From Candidatus Dormiibacterota bacterium (GTDB taxonomy: Bacteria > Chloroflexota > Dormibacteria > Dormibacterales > Dormibacteraceae), in assembly GCA_003139695.1 (NCBI GenBank), contig PLJM01000006.1, positions 186,001 through 250,000 on the forward strand: DNA of 64,000 bases. Direction: 5' to 3'. Shown here in pieces: positions 169-12,548 of the stretch. The position numbers and the translations under genes were made by a program. How positions within the stretch are numbered: position 1 is the stretch's first letter; each line of letters opens with the position of its first letter. The notes beneath the pieces were generated by a model. The model did no database searches, had not been told where the DNA came from, and saw nothing but the letters and a program-made list of their open reading frames with translations.

Positions 169-410
169 GCGCAGGAGGCGAACACTCGGAGGAAGGAAAC
201 CGGGTCCTCATCCACGACTTTCGCAATCTCCTGGCAGTGATCGTGAACTACTGCGAGCTGATCGCTGAGGAAACAGGCGATCCCGAAGCAGTGCGCACTG
301 ACATCCAGGAGATTCGCGTCGCTGCCGAGCGCGCGATCGCGCTGACCGACAAGCTGAGGCGCCCGCCAGTACCGGCTCCCGATTCGGAGTCCACGGCGAG
401 CGGGTTGTGA
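144..410 (+). CDS. Stand-alone histidine-kinase dimerisation (DHp/HisKA-like) domain protein
   Basis: An 88-residue protein made almost entirely of an H-box helix pair: IHDFRNLLAVIVNYCELI with candidate phospho-acceptor His24, followed by an acidic second helix ending in RAIALTDKL. No ATP-binding domain follows. A lone DHp domain can act as a phosphotransfer protein or be phosphorylated in trans. The upstream GHKL-type protein and the REC protein whose start overlaps this stop (GTGA) make a split kinase or phosphorelay plausible. The only in-frame start is TTG at 144, which overlaps the previous gene by 25 nt, so the exact start is uncertain. Confidence 0.6.
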   Translation: MATGETAVGAGGEHSEEGNRVLIHDFRNLLAVIVNYCELIAEETGDPEAVRTDIQEIRVAAERAIALTDKLRRPPVPAPDSESTASGL

Positions 411-1426
411 CCATGACCCGTAGGCCGGGTGCGGCCAGGACCGCAGCGGGCGGTGACGGCGTGACACCTTATCGCGAGCTCGTGCTGGTGGTCGACGACG
501 ACGACCAGATGCTGCGCCTGGTCAAGCGCGTGCTCGAACGCGCCGGCTTCGAGTGCGTCACGGTCGGCGACGGCGAGGTCGCACACGAGTCGGCGGTCGA
601 CTGGCGCCCCGACATCATCCTGCTCGACCTGATGCTCGGGTCGACGACCGGCGACCAGATCTTGGCCGACATCCGAAAGGACTTCCGCACCCGCCTGATC
701 CCCGTGGTCTTCCTCACTGTTCGCAGTTCGCTGAAGGACAAGGTGGAGCACCTACTCGCGGGCGCCGACGATTACGTGACAAAGCCGTTCATCGCGGAAG
801 AGCTCGTCGCGCGGTTGAGGGCGGTGATCAGCCGCTCCACGAACACGCGCGACCTCAACCCGCTGACAGGAATGAGCGGCAACACCGACATCCTTCGCGA
901 GATCAACCAGCGCCTCAAGGCGAACGAGCGCTTCGCAGTCCTGTATCCAGATATCGACACCTTCAAGAGTTACAACGACCACTACGGATTCCTGCGCGGA
1001 GACGACGTGATCAAGACGCTCGGCACGATCATCCTCGAGGTGCTCGAGGCGCACTACTCGCCCCATCACTTCGGTGGCCATGTCGGCGGTGATGACTTTG
1101 TGATCCTCACGGAGCCCAGCCTGGCGGAGACAGTCGCAGCCGAGATCACCAAGCGTTTCGACGAGGCGGTGCCCGACCTTTACGACGAGGTCGACAGGGA
1201 GCGCGGCTGGATCGAGTACGAGGACCGGAGCGGCGCCTCGCTCAGGACGGGCCTGGTCTCGGTGTCCATCGGTATCGTCCTGGCCGAGCCCGGTAGCTAC
1301 GAGAGCGCCGCCGCTCTTGCCTCACGCGCAGCCGAGGTGAAGGGCGTGGCGAAACGAATGCCAGGATCGAGGTGGGTCGTCGACCGCCGGCGCCCGCCAG
1401 AGGCTCGCGGAGGGCGCACCCGTTAA
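407..1426 (+). CDS. Response regulator with REC and GGDEF-like domains
   Basis: 339 residues. A receiver domain covers about residues 24-140, with acidic pocket D30-D33, phospho-acceptor D74 (in DIILLDLML), T104 and K126 (YVTKPF). A GGDEF-like domain fills residues 150-320, with DIDTFKSYND as the metal/substrate segment and GGDDF at 227-231 in place of GGDEF/GGEEF. The conservative D/E change leaves open whether it makes cyclic di-GMP or only binds nucleotide. The GTG start overlaps the DHp gene by 4 nt. It precedes the CpaF-cyclase fusion gene, so it is a candidate input to pilus control. Confidence 0.85.
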   Translation: MTMTRRPGAARTAAGGDGVTPYRELVLVVDDDDQMLRLVKRVLERAGFECVTVGDGEVAHESAVDWRPDIILLDLMLGSTTGDQILADIRKDFRTRLIPVVFLTVRSSLKDKVEHLLAGADDYVTKPFIAEELVARLRAVISRSTNTRDLNPLTGMSGNTDILREINQRLKANERFAVLYPDIDTFKSYNDHYGFLRGDDVIKTLGTIILEVLEAHYSPHHFGGHVGGDDFVILTEPSLAETVAAEITKRFDEAVPDLYDEVDRERGWIEYEDRSGASLRTGLVSVSIGIVLAEPGSYESAAALASRAAEVKGVAKRMPGSRWVVDRRRPPEARGGRTR

Positions 1427-1496: not shown

Positions 1497-4400
1497 ATGG
1501 CAATGAGTGACCCCGAGCCAACCTCATCCACGACTCCGCAAGTTCTGAGCGGTGACGCGCTGCTTGCGGTGACCGGCGCGCGCCCGCCTGAGACGGGCTT
1601 GGCCAGGGTCGGACGCCGCCAGGTCGCAGTGCATCGACTCGATGGCGGCCTGGAGCGCGGCGAGTCCGATGCGAGGTCCCTCAGCGCGGACGGCTTCCCG
1701 ATCTACACGCCGCCAGACCTGGACCGCGCACGCTGGATCCCTGCTCGCGACATCAAGTACGTGGTCTTCGGCAGCGCCGACGATCCTGACCTCGAGGCTG
1801 ACCCGGGCGACAAGAGCCAGGCCCGCAAGGCGATCCTTCGTTTCCGGGACGGCGAGTTGATCGCGGCCTACATGGATTCCGGACAACCGCCGGACGGTGC
1901 CGGCCTCGCGATCAAGATCCGGATGACCGAGCGCCAGCGCGTCATCCCCGCCATCGCCGCCAACGCGGCGCTCCTGGAGATGCAGTTCGTCGACCTGTGG
2001 GCCACCAGCACCGACTCGGCGCAGCCGCACCGCCGGCGCTCCGACATCGTCGAGGCGGCGGCGCGGCAGGGTCGCGACCTGCAAACGCTCGCCAACGACT
2101 TCCGCGATCGCCTCGCTCTGATCCGCGACGTCGGCTTGACGGCTGGCGACACTCTCGCCTTCTCGCGAGCGGTGCGCACCCACCTCGACCGTTTCCTGGC
2201 TGAGGACGGCATCAATCTCAACTCGGTCGAGAAGACGGCGCTCGCCGACATCATCCTGCGCGCCGCCGTCGGATACGGCCCGCTCGACGGCCTCCTCAAT
2301 GACCGCTCCGTAAGCGAGATCATGGTGAACGGTCCCGACCAGGTGTTCATCGAGCGGCGGGGTGTCCTGACCAAGGCCGACATCCGCTTCGAGGACGAGA
2401 ACCAGCTCCTGGAGACGATCCGCCGCATGGTGGCGACTACCGGCCGCCACATCGACGGCCTGAACCCAATGGTCGACGCCCGCCTGCCCGACGGCAGCCG
2501 TGTCAACGCGATCATCAGGCCCGCCGCCATCCACGGCGCTGCGCTCACGATCAGAAAGTTCAAGGACGCCGTCCTCGGCATCGACGACCTCACCCGCGAG
2601 GGCAGCTTGAGCCCAGCGATGGCCGAGTTCCTCAAGGCCGCGGTGCTCGGCCGCATGAACATCCTGGTGTCTGGTGGAACCGGGTCAGGCAAGACGACGA
2701 CCCTCAACGTGATCGCGCGCTTCATCCCGCACAACCAGCGCGTGATCACCATCGAGGATGCCGCCGAGCTGCAGATCGACCACCCGCACGTGATCGCGCT
2801 CGAGCACCGGCCAGCCAACGTCGAGGGCAAGGGCGAGCTGACGATTCGCCAGCTGCTGCGCAACAGCCTTCGAATGAGGCCTGACCGCATCCTCGTGGGA
2901 GAGGTGCGCGGCTCGGAAGCCCTCGACATGCTCCAGGCCATGAACACGGGCCACGACGGCAGCATGTCGACGATTCACTCCAACTCTGCGCGCGATGCGC
3001 TGTCCCGCCTGGAGACGATGGTGATGATGGCCTCGATCGACATCCCATTCGAAGCCGTGCGCGCGCAGATCGCGTCGGCCGTCAACCTCATAGTGCACCA
3101 GGCCCGCATGCCGGACGGCAGGCGCAAGGTCGCGCAGATCGCGGAGGTGGTCGGCTACGACCAGAACGGAGCGGTCCTTCGCGACATCTTCGTGCTCGGC
3201 ATGGGCGCAGACCTGCGCCTCGAGTACAACGCGACCGGATACATCCCGACCTCCCGGGACAAGGCTGCGTTCTACGGCGTCCAGATCGACGAGGACCTGT
3301 TCGACCCGGTGAAGGCGCGCTACGTCCCGGCGGGCTCGGACAGCATGATGCCGGTGGTCAACAACCCACTCATGACCGGGCAGCGCGGCGGCGGCGAGAA
3401 CGTGGTGCGCCAGGTGGTGGTGGTGCCGTTCAGCTCGGACCGCCCTGGCGATCGGCAGCAGCAGCAGACGCACACTGTGCAGTCGACGCCGTCAACCACG
3501 GCAAGCACGATGGCCTCCACGCCCGAGATGCAGGAGGAGATGCGAAAGCTGATCGACGCCGCGAGGTCCGCAGTGGCCGACCTCCAGGCGGCTCCGCGGC
3601 CAGGCCAGGCGCCCGCCCCCGAGCAGGCCCCTCCGCCCCAGCTGCCCGCTCGCGCCCAGGCGCAAGCGCCCGCGCCAACCGGCGGGGTTGCCGGCCCGGC
3701 GGCTGCGCAGCCGCCACCCGCGACCCTTTTTGCAGTACCGCCACCCCAGCAAGGCGAGGCGACGCCCGTGTCCTTCATGAGCGCCGGCGATACCGCCCAG
3801 GCCAACCAGGCTCTGCAGGCCGCGACCGCGATGGCGCGCGCGACCACTGCTTTGGGCCAGATGGCGGCCGCCGCGGGTGGGTTCATGCACGCGGGCCAGC
3901 TGCCGACCATCCAGGGCGAAGGCACGGTGCCACAAGGCGCGACACGGCGTATCCAGGCCGTGATCGAGAGCCTCATCACCCGCAAGGGCCTGAACCTCCG
4001 GCTTGCCCCCGCGGTGACTCAGGCGTTCGAGGGCGCGGAGCTGAAGGCAAGCGAGTACGCAGGGCCCAACCACATCAGCAAGGAGTCAGCGGGCCGCGAG
4101 TTGCGACAGGCGGTCGAGGCGGGCGTGCTGCAGGTGGTCAGGTATCCGCAGGGCGAGGCCGGCTTCCGCGCCGGGCCCGACCTGTTGCGCTCGGTCGCCG
4201 AAGGGCTCGGCCAGCAGGTCAACGCCGCGCAGCCTCTGACACCTGAAACCATCATCGGCAGCCTCTCGGTGGGCCAGACGGAAGGCACCGTCACCGTCAT
4301 GTTCACCGACATGGAGGGGTCGACGAACCTCCTGTCAACGAGGGGGTTCACCGAGTCCCACGAGATCATGAAGGCGTACGAATCGATCATCGATGAGAAG

Positions 4401-6407
4401 GTCGCCGAGCACGCAGGACGCCGCATCAAAGGCCTGGGCGACGGTCTCATGGTCAGCTTCGGGTCGAGCCGGCACGGCGTCGAGTGCGCGCTCGAGATCC
4501 AGAAGGCGATCGCCGAGTACAGCAAGCAGAACCCGGAGCGGACGATCAGGATCCGTATCGGCATCAACACCGGCGAGGTGGTCGAGGAGGCCGGCGACAT
4601 CTTCGGCGCCGCGGTCAACGTGGCAGCGCGTGTCGCGGGCAAGGCCAAGGGAGGCGAGATCCTCGTCTCCGACGTCGTGCGCTCGCTGGTCGGCCCTGTG
4701 GCTGAGATCAAATTCGACTTCAAGGGCGCATATAAGCTGAAGGGTTTTCCGGATCGCTGGCGGATTCACAAGGTGACCCCTGGCGAGTCGATCACGATGA
4801 CCACGGTCATGCCAACTGGAGACGGTTTCGTCGGCCGCGAGCAGGAGCGCCTCGACATGCGCATGGTGCTGGACCGCGCGGCCACGGGGTCGGGCGGCAT
4901 GGTGTTCATCGCAGGCCCGCCAGGCATCGGTGCGTCGCGGTTCGCCGCGGAGGTGGCCGGGGACGCCGTGGGCAAAGGGTGGGTCGTTCTGAGCGGCCGC
5001 TGCGCGGATCAAGCCGCGAGTCCGATGTCCCCGTTCCGCGACGTGCTCACTGCCGCTGTCGCGACCGCGGGAGCAAAGACCCTCCAGGACGCGGTGGGCC
5101 AGAACGGACAGTTGCTGGCGCAGTTGGTGCCCGCACTGCGTCAGAAGGTCCGCGGAATGGCCGCGAGCGCCGATGTCAACCCCGACAAGCTGCGCGAGCA
5201 GCTGTTCCACGCGATCTTCGACTTCCTGGTCGTATACCAGGGCGCCAAGCCGATGCTAATAGTGGTCGACGACCTCCAGTGGGCCGACGACGCATCGATC
5301 CTGCTCCTCCGAGACCTGGCGGAGCGCTTGAGTGAAAGCCGCATCGTCCTCGCCGCCACGTATTGGGAATCTGAGCTCGACTCGGGTCGCCCGTTCACTC
5401 CAGTGGTCTCGCGCTTGCTGCGCAGGCGGCGCGCGCAGCGGATCGGGCTGGGCCGGCTGTCAGACCGCGAAGTCGAGAAGATGGTCGCGGCGATGGCGGA
5501 GACGCCGGTCACACCGATTCAGCTCATCGGCATTCAGGCGGCGACGGAAGGCAACCCGCTCTTCGTCGAGCACTCCTTCCTTTACGTGGCAGCCTCCGAC
5601 ACCATGCTCGGCGGCAGCTCGCGCGTCCAGGTCAGCTTCACCGAGGAAGACCTCGAGCTCGCACAGAGCGTGCGCGGCCTCATCGGCCGCCGGCTGGAAC
5701 GGTTGAGCGAGCCCGCGCAGAGGATGCTGGTCGCGGCGGCCGTGATCGGCCGCGACTTCGACATCGCGCTGCTGGAAGCCTTCGGGGAGCTGTCAGGGCA
5801 CGAACTTCGCGAGGCTCTGGACGAGGCGACGCGTGGCCACTTCCTGACCAGCGCCGCCCCCGATCGTTACCGCTTTGGACACGACCTGGTGCGCCAGCGT
5901 GTCCTCGCGGTGCTGCCACTGCCTCGCCTGCAGGCCTACCACCTTGCGGTGGCCGACACGTTGGAGCGCGTTTACGGCAAGAGCGCCAACGAGCGCGCAG
6001 GGGAGATCGGCTACCACCTGTACCAGGCCGGCACTGCCGCCGACCCGGTGCGGACGGCCGGCTACCTGGCGCAAGCCGCGAAGAACGCGCTGTCGGTTGC
6101 GGCTTTCGAAGAGACGCTTCGCCTCGTCGACACGACGCTGATGCTGCTGCCCGGCGACAAGATTCGCGAGCGCGCGCAGGCGCTCAACATGCGGGGCCAG
6201 GCGTTCTGGGGCCTCGGCCGGCACGACGAAGCCCAGGCGGCCATGAAGGGCGCTGCGCAGCGGTACGAGGAGCTGGGCGACGCCAAGTCGGCGGCATTGC
6301 TCCACGATCGGCTGGAGCAGCTGAACCGCGGCGACGAGGAGCCGGCGCCAGCAGAAACCGAGCTCGCCGAAGAAGAGGTCGAGGTCCCCGAACCGGTCAC
6401 GCCGTAG
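1497..6407 (+). CDS. CpaF/TadA-type pilus ATPase fused to class III adenylate cyclase, AAA ATPase and TPR-like region
   Basis: One uninterrupted 1636-residue frame. Residues 1-240 are a poorly recognised N-terminus with two DG-x-x-x-G style segments. About 241-585 is a CpaF/VirB11 ATPase: Walker A GGTGSGKT with K399, RILVGEVRG with E469, His-box HDGSMSTIH (486-494). About 665-810 is a Pro/Ala/Gln-rich linker; 811-907 may be winged-helix-like. About 930-1100 is a class III cyclase with metal Asp938 and Asp982, adenine-specifying Lys978 and Asp1034, transition-state Asn1041 and Arg1045. About 1110-1400 is an AAA/STAND-like ATPase with GPPGIGASR, where Ala1146 replaces the Walker A lysine, and Walker B IVVDD (Asp1258/1259). 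The rest is helical, TPR-like. AGG at 1492-1494 suits ATG 1503 better than ATG 1497. CpaF proteins are usually about 450 residues. It faces the Tad structural genes, supporting a pilus-motor role. Confidence 0.85.
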   Translation: MAMSDPEPTSSTTPQVLSGDALLAVTGARPPETGLARVGRRQVAVHRLDGGLERGESDARSLSADGFPIYTPPDLDRARWIPARDIKYVVFGSADDPDLEADPGDKSQARKAILRFRDGELIAAYMDSGQPPDGAGLAIKIRMTERQRVIPAIAANAALLEMQFVDLWATSTDSAQPHRRRSDIVEAAARQGRDLQTLANDFRDRLALIRDVGLTAGDTLAFSRAVRTHLDRFLAEDGINLNSVEKTALADIILRAAVGYGPLDGLLNDRSVSEIMVNGPDQVFIERRGVLTKADIRFEDENQLLETIRRMVATTGRHIDGLNPMVDARLPDGSRVNAIIRPAAIHGAALTIRKFKDAVLGIDDLTREGSLSPAMAEFLKAAVLGRMNILVSGGTGSGKTTTLNVIARFIPHNQRVITIEDAAELQIDHPHVIALEHRPANVEGKGELTIRQLLRNSLRMRPDRILVGEVRGSEALDMLQAMNTGHDGSMSTIHSNSARDALSRLETMVMMASIDIPFEAVRAQIASAVNLIVHQARMPDGRRKVAQIAEVVGYDQNGAVLRDIFVLGMGADLRLEYNATGYIPTSRDKAAFYGVQIDEDLFDPVKARYVPAGSDSMMPVVNNPLMTGQRGGGENVVRQVVVVPFSSDRPGDRQQQQTHTVQSTPSTTASTMASTPEMQEEMRKLIDAARSAVADLQAAPRPGQAPAPEQAPPPQLPARAQAQAPAPTGGVAGPAAAQPPPATLFAVPPPQQGEATPVSFMSAGDTAQANQALQAATAMARATTALGQMAAAAGGFMHAGQLPTIQGEGTVPQGATRRIQAVIESLITRKGLNLRLAPAVTQAFEGAELKASEYAGPNHISKESAGRELRQAVEAGVLQVVRYPQGEAGFRAGPDLLRSVAEGLGQQVNAAQPLTPETIIGSLSVGQTEGTVTVMFTDMEGSTNLLSTRGFTESHEIMKAYESIIDEKVAEHAGRRIKGLGDGLMVSFGSSRHGVECALEIQKAIAEYSKQNPERTIRIRIGINTGEVVEEAGDIFGAAVNVAARVAGKAKGGEILVSDVVRSLVGPVAEIKFDFKGAYKLKGFPDRWRIHKVTPGESITMTTVMPTGDGFVGREQERLDMRMVLDRAATGSGGMVFIAGPPGIGASRFAAEVAGDAVGKGWVVLSGRCADQAASPMSPFRDVLTAAVATAGAKTLQDAVGQNGQLLAQLVPALRQKVRGMAASADVNPDKLREQLFHAIFDFLVVYQGAKPMLIVVDDLQWADDASILLLRDLAERLSESRIVLAATYWESELDSGRPFTPVVSRLLRRRRAQRIGLGRLSDREVEKMVAAMAETPVTPIQLIGIQAATEGNPLFVEHSFLYVAASDTMLGGSSRVQVSFTEEDLELAQSVRGLIGRRLERLSEPAQRMLVAAAVIGRDFDIALLEAFGELSGHELREALDEATRGHFLTSAAPDRYRFGHDLVRQRVLAVLPLPRLQAYHLAVADTLERVYGKSANERAGEIGYHLYQAGTAADPVRTAGYLAQAAKNALSVAAFEETLRLVDTTLMLLPGDKIRERAQALNMRGQAFWGLGRHDEAQAAMKGAAQRYEELGDAKSAALLHDRLEQLNRGDEEPAPAETELAEEEVEVPEPVTP

Positions 6408-6428: not shown

Positions 6429-8438
6429 CTATCCGACCAGGCGAGCCGCCGGTGGGACCGGCATGAAGTCGGCGATGCCTGTCATCGTCGGCAGCAACCC
6501 CGTGAAGGTGATGGTGTCGGCGATGACCCCACCTGTGGCGTCGGTCCTGAACCCGTTGCTGGTCGGCACGTTGAGCGAAGCGGCAGGCATGTACACCAGG
6601 CCGATGTATGCGGACGCCGTCGAGGCGCCCATCACGTTTGCGCAGGTGTTGGCCGTTTCCGCTGCATACAGACCTGGTTCGTAGATCGCCATCCAGTTGA
6701 ACTGATAACCGCTGAAGACGTAGTTGTCACCGCCATTCGGGTCGGCGAGGCAGCTCCCGCTGGGGATGTAGTAGGAGACGGCGCCAGGCGTGATGGCACC
6801 CGGGCAGGCGGTCAGCGCTGCCCCGCTGGTGTCGCACTGGTTTTCGTTGGCGCGGTCCCCCGCCTGCGGAACAGCGCGGTCCGCGTTCTGGTTGGGCAGG
6901 CCATTTGCAGTTGGGGTGGTCTCGCTGCTCGGCGGATACGCGCCGCTCGTTCCCCACAGGGCGAGGGGATTTGGCAGCGGGAAACCCGCTAAGTCGGAAC
7001 CGGAATACGAGGTCGTCTCATCACCGAGGCTGCACCCATTTCCGTTCCCATTTCCGTTTCCATTTCCGTTGTTCCCGTTGCCAAACGGACAGTGCTTGGT
7101 ATCGTCATTTTGGACCGGCCCGGTCACTGAAAGATTGTCGGCGAGCCCGAATGGGCCTGAGCAGCCGTTCCTCGAAAAGTAGATGTTGTACGAGGTAGCT
7201 CCTGGCACGTTGCTGACATCGAGCTGGAGCGTTTGATTCGCGCGGAAGTTGAATGACTGGCACATTGACGGAGCGCTCTCGCGCGGGTAGTTGGTCCCGG
7301 CGTACGTGTCGACTCGCACTGAGGTCAGCTCGACTCCCCACGTCCCCATGTTCTGACCACCGCCGTTACCGTTCGTGTCCACGTTGACCGAGCCGGCGCA
7401 GTTCACGCCGTCGATGTTCCAGAACTGGGGATTCGCCAGCTGCGTGTTGTTGTTGGGGTTGGGCTCATCCGGAGGCTTCAGCTCGTTGCTGACGAGGCCC
7501 CCGTTGTTGCTGTAGCCACCCTGCCACTTGTAAACCCCGCTGCTGAGGAAGTAGCACGTCTTGTTGCCAAAAGCAGGATTTGCCGCGTAGGTGCCCGGGA
7601 AGATCACAACGTCGTTGCCGGGTTTCCCCCTGCTGCCCCCGGCGACTGGCGGGGGTGGGTAGTTCGGGTCGGCGTAGTTGTAGCCGGACTTGGTGATTCC
7701 GGCGATGCTGGGGAAAGTGCACGGTGGCGTCGAGCCGCTTGGGTAGCAGGTCGTCGTCACCGAACCGGGCACGACGGCCTGGCACCGAGCGTAGATGTCC
7801 CCAGCGACCTTCAGCGTGGATCCCGCCGGAACGCTGATTGCCCCTGAGGAGACGATGGTGCCGAACACGGTCAGCGTGCCGCTGGCGGCGACCGACATGG
7901 CGATCCCGGGCTTGCCTCCGCATCCAGCCTGGTTGAGGGCAGCGAGCGTCGGCGTGTAGAGGAGGTTGTTCACGCCCCCCGACGCCGTGGAGCTCAGGGT
8001 CGGTGACACGCCGTTCGTGAGAATCCGGCCGAACTGGAGCTTGAGCGACCGCGTAGCGGTGAGCGTGAAGCGGCTGCCCGCTGCTCCGAGGGCGAGCACC
8101 GACTGGGTAAGAGTTGTTCCATCCGAGTAGGTGCAGGTCACCACGAACGGGGCCGCGCCTGGCGATCCGTATCCGGGGGCGCAGCCGGGAGCCGTGTACA
8201 GGAACAGGTTCTTGCCGAAGCTGGTGGTGGCTGCCTGCTCCGCCTGCGTGTAGCTGCCTGTCTGCTGCAGCGTGTCGCCGGACGTGAGAGCGGCGGCGTC
8301 CACAGCGTCCTGCAAGTCTCGACGCAAGGTGTACGCCCGAGCTCCGTCGATCGCGAGCGCCACCATGCCGACGAGAATCGCAAGCATGACGGCGATGAGC
8401 ACGATCGCCTGGCCCCGCTGACTACGGCCACCCGCCAT
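6429..8438 (-). CDS. TadG-like pilus/surface protein with N-terminal Tad domain
   Basis: 669 residues. The N-terminus RGQAIVLIAVMLAILVGMVA is the basic-plus-hydrophobic pseudopilin-like segment of the Tad (Flp pilus assembly) family, followed by the typical DGARAYTLRRDLQDAVDAAAL helix. The remaining 600 residues are an extracellular region rich in Gly, Asn, Ser, Thr and Pro with scattered Cys, including a (GN)n tract, and no recognised enzyme domain. It is likely membrane-anchored with the large domain outside. It follows two TadE-like genes on the same strand with 1-4 nt overlaps, so the three probably form one operon facing away from the cpaB-tadBC operon. It is much longer than usual TadG proteins. 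Confidence 0.75.
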   Translation of the reverse strand: MAGGRSQRGQAIVLIAVMLAILVGMVALAIDGARAYTLRRDLQDAVDAAALTSGDTLQQTGSYTQAEQAATTSFGKNLFLYTAPGCAPGYGSPGAAPFVVTCTYSDGTTLTQSVLALGAAGSRFTLTATRSLKLQFGRILTNGVSPTLSSTASGGVNNLLYTPTLAALNQAGCGGKPGIAMSVAASGTLTVFGTIVSSGAISVPAGSTLKVAGDIYARCQAVVPGSVTTTCYPSGSTPPCTFPSIAGITKSGYNYADPNYPPPPVAGGSRGKPGNDVVIFPGTYAANPAFGNKTCYFLSSGVYKWQGGYSNNGGLVSNELKPPDEPNPNNNTQLANPQFWNIDGVNCAGSVNVDTNGNGGGQNMGTWGVELTSVRVDTYAGTNYPRESAPSMCQSFNFRANQTLQLDVSNVPGATSYNIYFSRNGCSGPFGLADNLSVTGPVQNDDTKHCPFGNGNNGNGNGNGNGNGCSLGDETTSYSGSDLAGFPLPNPLALWGTSGAYPPSSETTPTANGLPNQNADRAVPQAGDRANENQCDTSGAALTACPGAITPGAVSYYIPSGSCLADPNGGDNYVFSGYQFNWMAIYEPGLYAAETANTCANVMGASTASAYIGLVYMPAASLNVPTSNGFRTDATGGVIADTITFTGLLPTMTGIADFMPVPPAARLVG
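7036..7082 (-). repeat. Hexanucleotide coding repeat giving a Gly-Asn tract
   Basis: On the plus strand the pattern CCATTTCCGTTC/T recurs about four times inside the TadG-like gene, read on the minus strand as alternating Gly-Asn codons. Such tracts can change length by slippage, which here would stay in frame in units of 6 nt. Confidence 0.6.
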
Positions 8439-8983
8439 CAGTACTCGGTCCTATAGATGGCGGCGGCGGTGATCAGGATGCGATTGGCGGTTGCCTGGGC
8501 GACGATTGGCGTGATCAAGATCAGGTTGAAGCGCAGCGTCACCTGCAGCGGCGCGTTGCTGGTGGCCGGCTTCACCGCGCTGCATCCCCCGTTTGCCACC
8601 GCGGGATACTCGCCTCCGGGCGCGTTCATCGGCGGCGTGGTTTCCACGGTCGATGGCGGGTTGGGCTCGGTGATGTAGAGCCACGCCGCATTGGCCGGCG
8701 GCGTCGCGCTGGTGATCGGCCCTTGAGGGCAGGGTGCGGTGACCGGGGCGCCGATCAGCTGAGTGGTCACTGTGGCGAGAACGCTGGCGTTTGTCGGCAG
8801 GGTGAAGGGCGCCTTGACGGCTGTGCGGGCGCCCTCGCGCGCTGCGTGGTTCAGCGTGTCGTAATAGAAGATCGCCCGGCCGATGTCGACGGTGCCGAAA
8901 AGGAGCAGCAGGAGGACAGGCGAGATGAGCGCGAACTCGATCAGCGCCTGCGACGATTGGCCCCGACGCCGTCGAAACGTCAC
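8438..8983 (-). CDS. tadE: TadE-like pseudopilin
   Basis: 181 residues. RRGQSSQALIEFALISPVLL is the TadE-type processing/hydrophobic segment, with the conserved Glu inside IEFALI. The family's second signature follows: FGTVDIGRAIFYYDTLNHAAREGAR. TadE proteins are minor pseudopilins cleaved by a TadV-type prepilin peptidase and inserted in the membrane with the C-terminus outside. The gene overlaps the next upstream TadE-like gene by 4 nt (8980-8983) and its stop touches the TadG-like start. No prepilin peptidase or major Flp pilin lies in this window. Confidence 0.8.
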   Translation of the reverse strand: MTFRRRRGQSSQALIEFALISPVLLLLLFGTVDIGRAIFYYDTLNHAAREGARTAVKAPFTLPTNASVLATVTTQLIGAPVTAPCPQGPITSATPPANAAWLYITEPNPPSTVETTPPMNAPGGEYPAVANGGCSAVKPATSNAPLQVTLRFNLILITPIVAQATANRILITAAAIYRTEY

Positions 8984-9561
8984 CGGCCACCTACTGTCAT
9001 GTGCTCGTTGGCCGCAAGGTGGAAGCTGCCGAACTGGGCCGTCACGAGAGGGGTCAGCGGCCCGTACGTGTAGAGCACGATCACGTTCACGTCCTGCAAG
9101 CTCTGGCCGGAACCGGGCGCGCTCGTGAAGTCGACTCCCGCAGTGTTCTGGTAGCAGATGTAGAGCCAGGTCTGGTTGGCTGTCGGCGGGTACGCGGCGC
9201 TCGCGTACGGCGGATTGTGAAATGCGTTGCCGTCAGTCGGGTTGGGGCAGGTGGTCCCCGGGTTCTTCAGGGTGGAGGCGGGGAGCGAGGCGGCCGCAAG
9301 CTCGGCGTCCACGGCGGCTTTGATCTGAGCGTCGTAAAGGTAGGGGTGCGCCAGGGCAGGGGCCTGGAAGTAGGCGCCGTGCCGCGCGCCTTCGCGAGCG
9401 GCGTTCGAGATCACCTCTGTGACATAGATCGCACGGCCGATGTCGACCAGGCCGCCGACCAGCAGGAGAAGGACGACGGAGGATAGTGCGAACTCGACCA
9501 TTGACTGCCCGGACTGCACTCTGGTGCCGGAACTTCGGATCGAGTTAGGGGGGCGCGACAC
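8980..9561 (-). CDS. tadE: TadE-like pseudopilin, first gene of the minus-strand pilus operon
   Basis: 193 residues with the TadE signature SGQSMVEFALSSVVLLLLVGG and then DIGRAIYVTEVISNAAREGAR. A hydrophobic stem is followed by an extracellular part with paired Cys residues. It starts with GTG at 9561 and is divergent from cpaB, with 29 bp between the two starts, so both pilus operons are likely controlled from one short intergenic region. Confidence 0.78.
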   Translation of the reverse strand: MSRPPNSIRSSGTRVQSGQSMVEFALSSVVLLLLVGGLVDIGRAIYVTEVISNAAREGARHGAYFQAPALAHPYLYDAQIKAAVDAELAAASLPASTLKNPGTTCPNPTDGNAFHNPPYASAAYPPTANQTWLYICYQNTAGVDFTSAPGSGQSLQDVNVIVLYTYGPLTPLVTAQFGSFHLAANEHMTVGGR

Positions 9562-9590: not shown

Positions 9591-10346
9591 TTGCGCACCA
9601 TTACGTCTCGAAGGCCCTTCACGATCCTCGGAATCGTCCTCGCTCTCCTGGTCATAGCAGCCTTTGTCCTCGTAGCCATCAACGCCTCGACAGGGTCGAG
9701 TGGTCCCAGCCAGAACGTGGTGGTGGCTACCCAGGACCTGACGCCGCGAATCCCGATTCCAGCCGGATCCCTCGAGATCAAAAGCCTTCCCACCGGAGGC
9801 CTGCCTTCCACCGTGTTCACCAAGATCAGCGACGCCACGGGCATGATCCCTCTGGTCACGATCGTCAAGGGCCAGGCGGTCTCGTCCAACCTGGTGGCCA
9901 AGCCGGGGCAAACGTTGGGGGCGCAATCCGAGTTCCTGCCCATCCCCTCCGGCTATGTTGCGCTCACGATTCCCACCAGCGAGCAGCAGGGTGTCGCCGA
10001 CTACATCCAGCCGGGCGACTTCATCTCGGTCATCGCCACTGTGACCTCAGGCGCCAAGGTGGCGACCAAGACGGTATTCACCAACATCCACGTGATCAGG
10101 GTCGGCACCAGCGGCAGTGACAGCACGTCCGCGGCGGCCGCCACCAGCCTCACGGTGGTTGTCACGGCCTGCCAGTCCGAGTTCATCACCTGGTTCTTAC
10201 AGTTCGCCTCTTTGAAATACGAGCTCGAGTCCTACCAGGACTACGGGCCCGTGACCAACGCCAAAGACCCCCAATGTCCGAGCGTCACCTCTGCGCAGGG
10301 CGTGAACCTCCAATTGGTGCAGAAGACCTACCCGTCCCTCTTCTAA
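9591..10346 (+). CDS. cpaB: Flp pilus assembly protein CpaB/RcpC
   Basis: 251 residues. One N-terminal membrane segment (about 10-32, FTILGIVLALLVIAAFVLVA) is followed by an SAF-like domain: VVVATQDLTPRIPIPAGSLE, then KGQAVSSNLVAKPG and ALTIPTSEQQGVADYIQPGD, the order seen in CpaB/RcpC. The family sits at the cell envelope in Tad systems and may bind peptidoglycan through the SAF domain. The start codon is TTG; no ATG or GTG lies nearby in frame. It is followed after 2 nt by tadB and then tadC. Confidence 0.82.
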   Translation: MRTITSRRPFTILGIVLALLVIAAFVLVAINASTGSSGPSQNVVVATQDLTPRIPIPAGSLEIKSLPTGGLPSTVFTKISDATGMIPLVTIVKGQAVSSNLVAKPGQTLGAQSEFLPIPSGYVALTIPTSEQQGVADYIQPGDFISVIATVTSGAKVATKTVFTNIHVIRVGTSGSDSTSAAAATSLTVVVTACQSEFITWFLQFASLKYELESYQDYGPVTNAKDPQCPSVTSAQGVNLQLVQKTYPSLF

Positions 10347-10348
10347 AC

Positions 10349-11302
10349 ATGAATCTCCCGCCACCCGTCCTCACGCTGATCATTGCAGTGCCGATGGCGG
10401 CCGCGATCGCGGTCTTCTTCTGGAGCCTGGATAGGATCCGCAAGGAGCGCAAGGTGCCATTGGAGAGCTCGAGCGAGCCTCGGGCGACGCCGCGAGAGCT
10501 GGTCGAGCGGCTGCTACGACCGGCCGCGGAGAACCTCAGCCAGCGGCGAAGTGTCAGGGGAAGGCCGACCCTCACTGAGGACCTGGCCCGCGCCGGCCTG
10601 AACATCACCCCTTCTGAGTATCTCTTGATCCGTATCGGATCCGTTGCGCTGGGAGCCCTTGTCGGGCTGTTTCGTTTCGGCTTCTCCGCCGGGCCGCTGG
10701 TCCTCGGCGTTGTCGGGTTCACAGTTCCGCCGTTGGTGGTCGCCTATCTGCAGCGGCGCCGCCAGAACCTGTTCAACGACCAGCTGACCGCGATGCTACA
10801 GCTGTTGTCGAACTCGCTGAAGACGGGCTACGCGATCGACCGCGCCCTGGAGACGGTGGCAAGCAAGTCCCGGCCGCCGGTCTCCACTGAGTTCGAACGC
10901 GTGACCACCGAGGTGACGCTGGGCACGTCGGTCGAGGACGCTCTGAGCGCGCTGCTACTGCGCATCAACAGCCCGGACCTCGAGTTCATCGTCACCGCGA
11001 TCCTTCTCCACATCCGCGTCGGCGGCAACCTGGCGGAGGTCCTCGACACGATCTCCGATACCCTTCGCGATCGCCTGCAGACAAAGCGCGACATGAGTGT
11101 GCTCACCGCGCAATCGCGGGCTTCCGCCTCGATCATCACGGGCCTGCCGATCCTGCTCGCGCTCGGCCTTTACGTTTTTGTACCTGGCTATTTCGCACCG
11201 ATGACCTCCACGCTCATCGGTTACATCCTCCTCGGCATCGCCGGCCTGCTGATCCTGGTCGGCAACGTCCTCATCAACCGCATGACCTCGCTGCAGGCTT
11301 AA
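10349..11302 (+). CDS. tadB: Tad pilus inner-membrane platform protein TadB
   Basis: 317 residues from ATG 10349, just after the cpaB stop. A T2SSF domain occupies the middle: LLSNSLKTGYAIDRALETVA and later ILLHIRVGGNLAEVLDTISDTLRDR, with two hydrophobic segments near residues 105-155 and two at the C-terminus. TadB and TadC form the membrane platform that the CpaF-type ATPase drives to polymerise or retract the pilus. An upstream in-frame start at 10274 lies inside cpaB and was not used. Confidence 0.85.
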   Translation: MNLPPPVLTLIIAVPMAAAIAVFFWSLDRIRKERKVPLESSSEPRATPRELVERLLRPAAENLSQRRSVRGRPTLTEDLARAGLNITPSEYLLIRIGSVALGALVGLFRFGFSAGPLVLGVVGFTVPPLVVAYLQRRRQNLFNDQLTAMLQLLSNSLKTGYAIDRALETVASKSRPPVSTEFERVTTEVTLGTSVEDALSALLLRINSPDLEFIVTAILLHIRVGGNLAEVLDTISDTLRDRLQTKRDMSVLTAQSRASASIITGLPILLALGLYVFVPGYFAPMTSTLIGYILLGIAGLLILVGNVLINRMTSLQA

Positions 11303-11309
11303 AGCCCTA

Positions 11310-12194
11310 ATGCTCCTTATCGCCGTAACGGCGGGACTCATCTGCGGGGTGATCGTGGCCGCGTTCTTCATCGCCCTCGACCGCACCCTCGCCGCGGCGG
11401 CGAACACAAGCGGGATCTGGACGGCGCCGCCGGTCAACACCCCGCTTCTCAAGCAGCTCGAAAACCTGGCGCGGCCGCTGGCCAACCGCCTGCCGGCTCT
11501 GGAGGCCGGAGAGCTGCGTCAGAAGCTGAGCCGCGCGGGCGACCCGGGCAACCTGACTCCGGCAGGTTTCCAGGCGGTTCGCTACGGCCTTGCGGCACTT
11601 CTCGCTATCGCAGGGCTCGCCCTCGGACTCCTTGTGCATACGAACTTCCCAACGTTCCTGACCGCTGTGGCCAGCGGCGTCGTGGCGGCTTTCCTTGGCT
11701 ATTTCCTCCCTCTGCTTTGGTTGAATCAGAGGATCGCCGCTCGGCGAACACAGATCCAGAGGTCGCTTGCCGAGGCGACCGACCTGCTGACGCTGGTCGT
11801 TGAGTCAGGTATGAGCCTCGACGAGGGCCTGCTGAGCATCACCGAGCGCTTTCACAACGCGCTGGGCGACGAGATCGGCAAAGTGCTGCGCGAGATCCGG
11901 CTGGGCCGGCCCCGAATGGCCGCTCTCGAGCACATGGCGGACACGTGCGGAGTGGCGGACCTGCACCACCTGGTCGAGTCGATAGTGCAGTCCGATCAGA
12001 TGGGCGTGCCCATCGCCAGGCTGCTGCGGGTGCAGGCGACAGAGATGAGGAGGCGGCAGCGGCAGACGGCTCAGGAGCGCGCCGCGCAAGCGTCGTCGCG
12101 AATGGTGTTCCCGATGGTGGGGTGTATCTTCCCGGTTCTGTGGATCGTGCTCCTGGGGCCCGCGATCATCCAGATCCTGAGCACCGTTCGCTAG
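11310..12194 (+). CDS. tadC: Tad pilus inner-membrane platform protein TadC
   Basis: 294 residues with an N-terminal membrane helix, a central hydrophobic pair (about 90-150) and a T2SSF domain: LTLVVESGMSLDEGLLSITE, then HHLVESIVQSDQMGVPIARL and a C-terminal membrane segment WIVLLGPAIIQIL. It is the usual partner of TadB. It begins 7 nt after the tadB stop and is followed 3 nt later by a MerR-family gene, so cpaB-tadB-tadC-merR look like a single transcript. Confidence 0.85.
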   Translation: MLLIAVTAGLICGVIVAAFFIALDRTLAAAANTSGIWTAPPVNTPLLKQLENLARPLANRLPALEAGELRQKLSRAGDPGNLTPAGFQAVRYGLAALLAIAGLALGLLVHTNFPTFLTAVASGVVAAFLGYFLPLLWLNQRIAARRTQIQRSLAEATDLLTLVVESGMSLDEGLLSITERFHNALGDEIGKVLREIRLGRPRMAALEHMADTCGVADLHHLVESIVQSDQMGVPIARLLRVQATEMRRRQRQTAQERAAQASSRMVFPMVGCIFPVLWIVLLGPAIIQILSTVR

Positions 12195-12197
12195 CGC

Positions 12198-12548
12198 ATG
12201 AGCGGTCGCACGACCTCTCGGGGTCTGCAACAGTCGTTCAGCGACCTCGATAAGCCGCTCTACACGATCAGCGTCGCCGCGGAGATCCTGGAGACGCACC
12301 CACGCACGCTGATGCTGTACGAGGACGCGCAGCTGATGGAACCCCACCGGACAGTGACGAACCGAAGGCGCTACTCGCAGCGGGACATCAGCAAAGTGCA
12401 GGTGATCCAGTACCTGACGAGGGAAAAGGGGGTGACGCTAGCGGGAGTGCGCCACATCCTGAGCCTGTTCGACGTGATGAAGAAGCACAAGGTGGAACCG
12501 CCGGCAAACCTAAGAGAGATTTTCGACAGGTACTCGCAGATTAACTAG
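12198..12548 (+). CDS. MerR-family (HspR-like) transcriptional regulator
   Basis: 116 residues. The winged helix-turn-helix YTISVAAEILETHPRTLMLYE and the wing RRRYSQRDISKVQVIQYLT fit the MerR superfamily, closest in style to HspR (helix-turn-helix plus a short coiled tail). There are no Cys residues for metal sensing. As the last gene of the tad operon it may regulate the pilus genes or its own operon; the palindromes near 1430-1474 are possible but unproven targets. HspR usually sits with dnaK, which is not here, so the HspR name is not assigned. Confidence 0.75.
   Translation: MSGRTTSRGLQQSFSDLDKPLYTISVAAEILETHPRTLMLYEDAQLMEPHRTVTNRRRYSQRDISKVQVIQYLTREKGVTLAGVRHILSLFDVMKKHKVEPPANLREIFDRYSQIN

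Follow-up and report, generated by a model that had tools for sequence, protein, structure and literature searches.

We analysed a 64,000-nucleotide stretch of DNA from a Candidatus Dormiibacterota assembly (the window), in which a Tad pilus locus contains a fusion gene on the forward strand (window positions 1497..6407). The 1636-residue product consists, from the N terminus, of DUF6982-like barrels, a CpaF/TadA motor, a linker, a winged helix, a class III cyclase, a pseudo-AAA_16 domain and a TPR-like region. The gene lies 70 bp downstream of a REC-GGDEF response regulator with a GGDDF motif on the same strand (407..1426; Response_reg 4.8e-23, GGDEF 4.3e-16). On its other side, reverse-strand genes for a TadG-like protein (6429..8438; PF13400 8e-9) and two TadE-like pseudopilins (8438..8983, PF07811 1.9e-16; 8980..9561, PF07811 1.1e-13) are followed on the forward strand by RcpC/CpaB (9591..10346; PF16976 1.1e-12), the T2SSF platform proteins TadB (10274..11302; PF00482 7e-19) and TadC (11310..12194; PF00482 1.5e-16) and, directly 3′ of tadC, a MerR-family regulator (12198..12548; PF13411 3.5e-16). 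The tad genes recognised in the locus (tadB, tadC, cpaB, two tadE and tadG) keep their order in fused relatives, and the positions of the TadG-like and MerR-family genes are likewise conserved. Since the listed tadB frame overlaps cpaB, the true TadB start may lie downstream of the listed ATG. A Gly-Asn repeat, GNGNGNGNG, lies in the second half of the 669-aa TadG-like protein.

In each of the 17 fused loci checked, a REC-GGDEF gene immediately precedes the fusion and is likely to be its operon partner; its product may make c-di-GMP. Its GGDDF, REC aspartate and DIDxFK motifs are intact in 17/17 relatives checked. Further upstream, a REC-SpoIIE phosphatase and a hybrid histidine kinase are encoded (L104, 5799-9300); the first of these genes is maintained in the fused loci checked.

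The preliminary description of this DNA had proposed that a CpaF motor and a class III cyclase share one continuous frame, joined by a Pro/Gln-rich linker, and this was borne out by the open reading frame, by Pfam and by the relatives. Frame 1497-6407 is uninterrupted, and its third-position GC of 0.87 is of the coding type as judged by codon composition. The residues named there are found at their positions: K399, E469 and a His box from 486 in the motor, and D938, K978, D982, D1034, N1041 and R1045 in the cyclase. A domain search of the 1636 residues recovered T2SSE (260-535, 4e-67), Guanylate_cyc (927-1085, 1e-20) and AAA_16 (1111-1283, 2.3e-26) as anticipated; the expected TPR match fell below its cut-off. 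The winged helix, the DUF6982-like barrels, the alanine (A1146) in place of the AAA_16 Walker A lysine and the whole Tad locus with its REC-GGDEF gene go beyond the earlier account.

At the N terminus, residues 41-165 (1617..1991, forward strand, as for all parts of the fusion) are modelled by AlphaFold2 as tandem five-stranded barrels of a divergent DUF6982-like type (pLDDT about 80-94). A fold search with the model returned Sm/Tudor-like structures as best matches, none of them significant (E above 0.001), and the orthologous barrel region of a paralogue, L153, matches DUF6982 above the cut-off (1.4e-12). A sequence search against solved structures gave no match for either the N-terminal region or the winged helix. 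The motor core (residues 237-605; 2205..3311) matches T2SSE and the TadA family model TIGR03819 (7.6e-98), a hypothetical-equivalog subfamily model that is the motor's best-scoring NCBIfam hit even though its 327.8 bits do not reach the cut-off of 373.15. The Walker A lysine, catalytic glutamate and His box of the T2SSE domain are all present; the Walker A motif GGTGSGKTT, containing K399 (2673..2699), shows little or no variation among the copies, and the mean modal residue frequency over residues 241-600 is 0.97. The linker that follows (3417..3932) is Pro/Gln/Ala-rich and variable, with a mean modal frequency of 0.62-0.78 and two conserved helical patches.

The winged-helix domain (residues 813-903; 3933..4205) has a MarR/ArsR-like fold in an AlphaFold2 model with pLDDT of about 90, for which Foldseek returned 2nyx (2.2e-4) and CadC 3f72 (7.9e-4). 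Next comes the class III adenylyl cyclase domain (residues 927-1085; 4275..4751), whose closest solved relative is the mycobacterial cyclase Ma1120 (6.8e-29). Its six catalytic residues, corresponding to two metal-binding aspartates, the Lys/Asp pair that specifies adenine, an asparagine and an arginine, are present in 25/25 copies, and these residues together with the motor motifs are invariant in each copy that covers them. The cyclase is probably active and would make cAMP.

The AAA_16 domain (4827..5345) had been described as an AAA ATPase, a label that does not hold. Its Walker A motif, GPPGIGAS (4914..4937), is degenerate, and the pattern GxxGxG[A/T/M/V/G][S/T] is missing the P-loop lysine in all 25 fused copies examined, whereas the lysine is kept in the stand-alone homologues checked from other phyla. 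We conclude from this loss that the domain is a pseudo-ATPase; Walker B is retained in most fused copies, and a role as a non-hydrolysing scaffold or sensor is probable. The C-terminal region (5367..6266) is helical and TPR-like, with a weak TPR_8 match (E 0.0015; 19 bits against a curated cut-off of 25.7). A match to NCBIfam TOMM_kin_cyc (TIGR03903), well below its cut-off, spans residues 929-1547, from the cyclase to the TPR-like region. In STAND proteins that carry a TPR sensor, an ADP-bound form gives way to an ATP-bound one (PMC6468293); a normal switching cycle of this kind would be unlikely in a fusion that has no P-loop lysine.

The same architecture occurs in related genomes, both as complete open frames, found in 19 assemblies including that of the window, and as partial copies cut by contig ends. 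The preliminary description had left room for a broken linker, for two separate genes in relatives or for a fusion unique to this assembly. The complete copies have neither a stop nor a frame shift in the linker, and the relatives encode either the entire fusion or a CpaF-winged-helix protein of reduced length that has no cyclase gene as a neighbour. The fused copies found all belong to one family in the class Dormibacteria, whose members are uncultured soil bacteria, and they span seven of its genera. The fusion of a same-genus genome is 83-85% identical, and a contig scan added many more assemblies, labelled Chloroflexi or Dormiibacterota/Dormibacteraeota, in which most full-length copies are about 70-83% identical. 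dN/dS is 0.03-0.06 for the motor, 0.05-0.16 for the cyclase, 0.14-0.32 for the AAA domain and 0.23-0.43 for the linker; these values, well below 1 in every domain and in the linker too, indicate purifying selection throughout. L038 has a frame shift near the start of the fusion, and in L057 (7962-12644) the gene is split into three overlapping frames by sequencing error or decay. L051 and L052, which looked partial only because BLAST listed single segments of their matches, proved to be full fusions.

Among 110 genomes of the same class, a winged-helix profile matched 33 genomes of one family and gave one weak match elsewhere. Most of these matches lie in frames of ~1550-1850 aa; three are in shorter frames (855-979 aa) and several are cut short. 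In a phylum sample of 101 genomes, strong matches were again restricted to the same family. The winged helix was the query on which these distribution searches relied, and only close relatives fall within reach of the contig scan, which leaves room for fusions with other linkers outside the family. A 389-aa frame of L116 (G055), from another family of the same class, matches the winged helix weakly and may represent a stand-alone relative of this part. Genus g4 (two genomes), genus g3 (two) and genus g80 (one) gave no CpaF match at 1e-60.

Shorter relatives suggest how the chain arose. In L053 and L055, a CpaF protein with the same N-terminal region and the winged helix ends at 855-979 aa, with neither cyclase nor AAA domain; the frame in L054 reaches the contig end with no cyclase, and L056, partly masked, belongs to the same clade as the shorter form. 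The possibility that these sister genera encode the cyclase as its own gene next to the shorter CpaF was rejected, as L053-L056 gave no cyclase match. The order TadG, TadE, TadE, CpaB is also found downstream of the shorter CpaF in L053 and L055; in L054 and L055 the shorter CpaF is not immediately preceded by a REC-GGDEF gene, and the upstream sequence available in L053 extends over only 1 kb. A genome encoding a winged-helix-only CpaF also encodes the paralogue L153 (1468-3300, reverse strand), a 611-aa protein made of DUF6982 barrels and CpaF only, with no winged helix, which is a possible ancestral architecture. In a tree of the CpaF core, the fused copies form one clade (100/96) with the winged-helix-only clade as sister (99/93), and L153 branches next with weak support (91/60). 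The chain was probably built stepwise, the winged helix being added to barrels and CpaF and the cyclase module after it. By these sequence comparisons, the simplest reading is that the cyclase-AAA-TPR module was gained once; that the sister clade lost it is a less likely alternative.

We compared the fusion with known systems that share its parts. CpaF is described as a hexamer with predicted contacts to TadB and TadC (PMC11300603, PMC12019362). The Caulobacter crescentus CpaF/TadA motor resembles that of the fusion in its T2SSE core, Walker A, glutamate and His boxes and in its tadB, tadC, cpaB, tadE and tadG neighbours. The 292 CpaF orthologues in a published tree are bare, have an N-terminal disordered region or have an FHA domain plus a disordered region, with no C-terminal enzyme, and the word 'cyclase' is absent from that paper (PMC12019362); a C-terminal winged helix, cyclase or AAA domain occurs in none of these architectures, and the N-terminal barrels of the fusion also set it apart. 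The nearest published case is Myxococcus KilF, an FHA-CpaF fusion that likewise places a signalling domain on the Tad motor chain, but the extra domain is N-terminal and phosphopeptide-binding and there is no second-messenger enzyme (PMC8460266). Ma1120-type cyclases align over the full-length catalytic domain and share the Lys-Asp adenine specification, the two metal aspartates, the asparagine and the arginine; they occur alone or on a hydrolase, whereas the cyclase of the fusion sits on a pilus motor and a winged helix. Cyclase-AAA_16 regulators (for example TIGR03903 and the stand-alone Acidimicrobiia proteins L060 and L061) have the same order of cyclase, AAA_16 and helical C terminus, and residues 914-1548 align at about 30% identity. 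In those checked, the Walker A lysine lost from the fused copies is intact, and TIGR03903 has a kinase in addition. In Pseudomonas aeruginosa, Pil-Chp and CyaB also tie type IV pilus activity to cAMP production, but as separate proteins of a type IVa pilus with a chemosensory relay between them (PMC11656802, PMC12607626), and how pilus engagement leads via CyaB to cAMP has yet to be defined (PMC12607626). A search of the open-access literature, with subscription journals mostly outside it, returned no CpaF-cyclase fusion and no description of Tad pili or cyclases in Dormibacteria. The architecture thus appears to be new, whereas its parts are known.

The best reading of the sequence is that the fusion is an active Tad motor with a tethered, probably active adenylyl cyclase. 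The earlier proposal of a Tad motor and a cyclase in a single polypeptide stands, with catalytic residues kept on both sides and tadB, tadC and pseudopilin genes in the locus. Class III cyclases act as dimers. By homology to published CpaF structures, the motor half would form a hexamer beneath the TadB/TadC platform. As many as six cyclase domains, each on a flexible linker, would be gathered on this ring, concentrated so that they could pair into dimers, and the paired cyclases would make cAMP at the base of the pilus. The pseudo-AAA/TPR part would most likely serve as a ligand- or protein-binding gate. We assign a probability of about 0.6 to this reading, in which a Tad motor ATPase carries a C-terminal winged helix-cyclase-pseudo-AAA-TPR module and ring-held cyclases pair to supply cAMP at the pilus base. 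We infer that motor and cyclase are both active, that the protein is produced and remains in one piece, and that occupancy or conformation of the motor alters cyclase output. Cyclase output may plausibly depend on motor state, and pilus load might influence cAMP, or cAMP the motor. A more specific form, in which nucleotide- or load-driven conformations of the CpaF hexamer assemble the cyclase dimers, so that surface contact or retraction would lead to cAMP with the REC-GGDEF protein supplying a partner second messenger, is tentative and somewhat unlikely. With motor and cyclase in one molecule, a single purified protein would be enough to address how pilus activity becomes a chemical signal.

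Points against this reading are that no pilin, secretin or prepilin peptidase gene was recognised in the stretch of the locus read, and that the linker is long and variable, so the two enzymes could work independently across it. The motor might then carry the cyclase for localisation or fixed stoichiometry, with an output that does not depend on motor state, a sizeable minority possibility to which the weak constraint on the Pro/Gln/Ala-rich segment between the halves and the existence of stand-alone cyclase-AAA proteins, which show that the module can function without a motor, both lend weight. However, the winged helix also occurs in the cyclase-free, shorter CpaF of the sister clade, and the linker includes two conserved helical patches, which together suggest more than a passive tether. 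Signalling could also run in the reverse direction, with the pseudo-AAA/TPR part and winged helix binding a ligand or partner to gate pilus extension and cAMP being a side or feedback signal. Retention of the AAA domain despite loss of its P-loop lysine in all copies would fit, and the presence of REC-GGDEF and REC-SpoIIE genes nearby points to a heavily regulated locus, but the invariance of the cyclase's catalytic residues would make little sense were cAMP production of no importance, and we regard this direction as unlikely.

It is quite unlikely that the gene yields two products, the cyclase half being freed by proteolysis of the linker or made from an internal start such as Met682 (window 3540). 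This methionine is conserved in 16/16 copies, 15 of which have a Shine-Dalgarno-like sequence just upstream, but such a string is expected from Gln-Glu-Glu codons in a GC-rich genome and lies very close to the ATG, and the linker frame is uninterrupted in all complete copies. An assembly artefact, or a recent accidental read-through of two genes, might be suspected from the split L057 copy; it is vanishingly improbable given purifying selection throughout and 19 complete copies, with amino acid identity down to about 71%, in different assemblies, which refute a chimera. The series of architectures, together with the uniform loss of the AAA P-loop lysine, clearly documents, in nature, the acquisition of a signalling enzyme by a molecular machine.

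The genome carrying the window encodes six cNMP-binding proteins, which could receive the cAMP. It also contains four further T2SSE genes and other cyclase-like matches, so the fusion locus is not the sole source of either activity.
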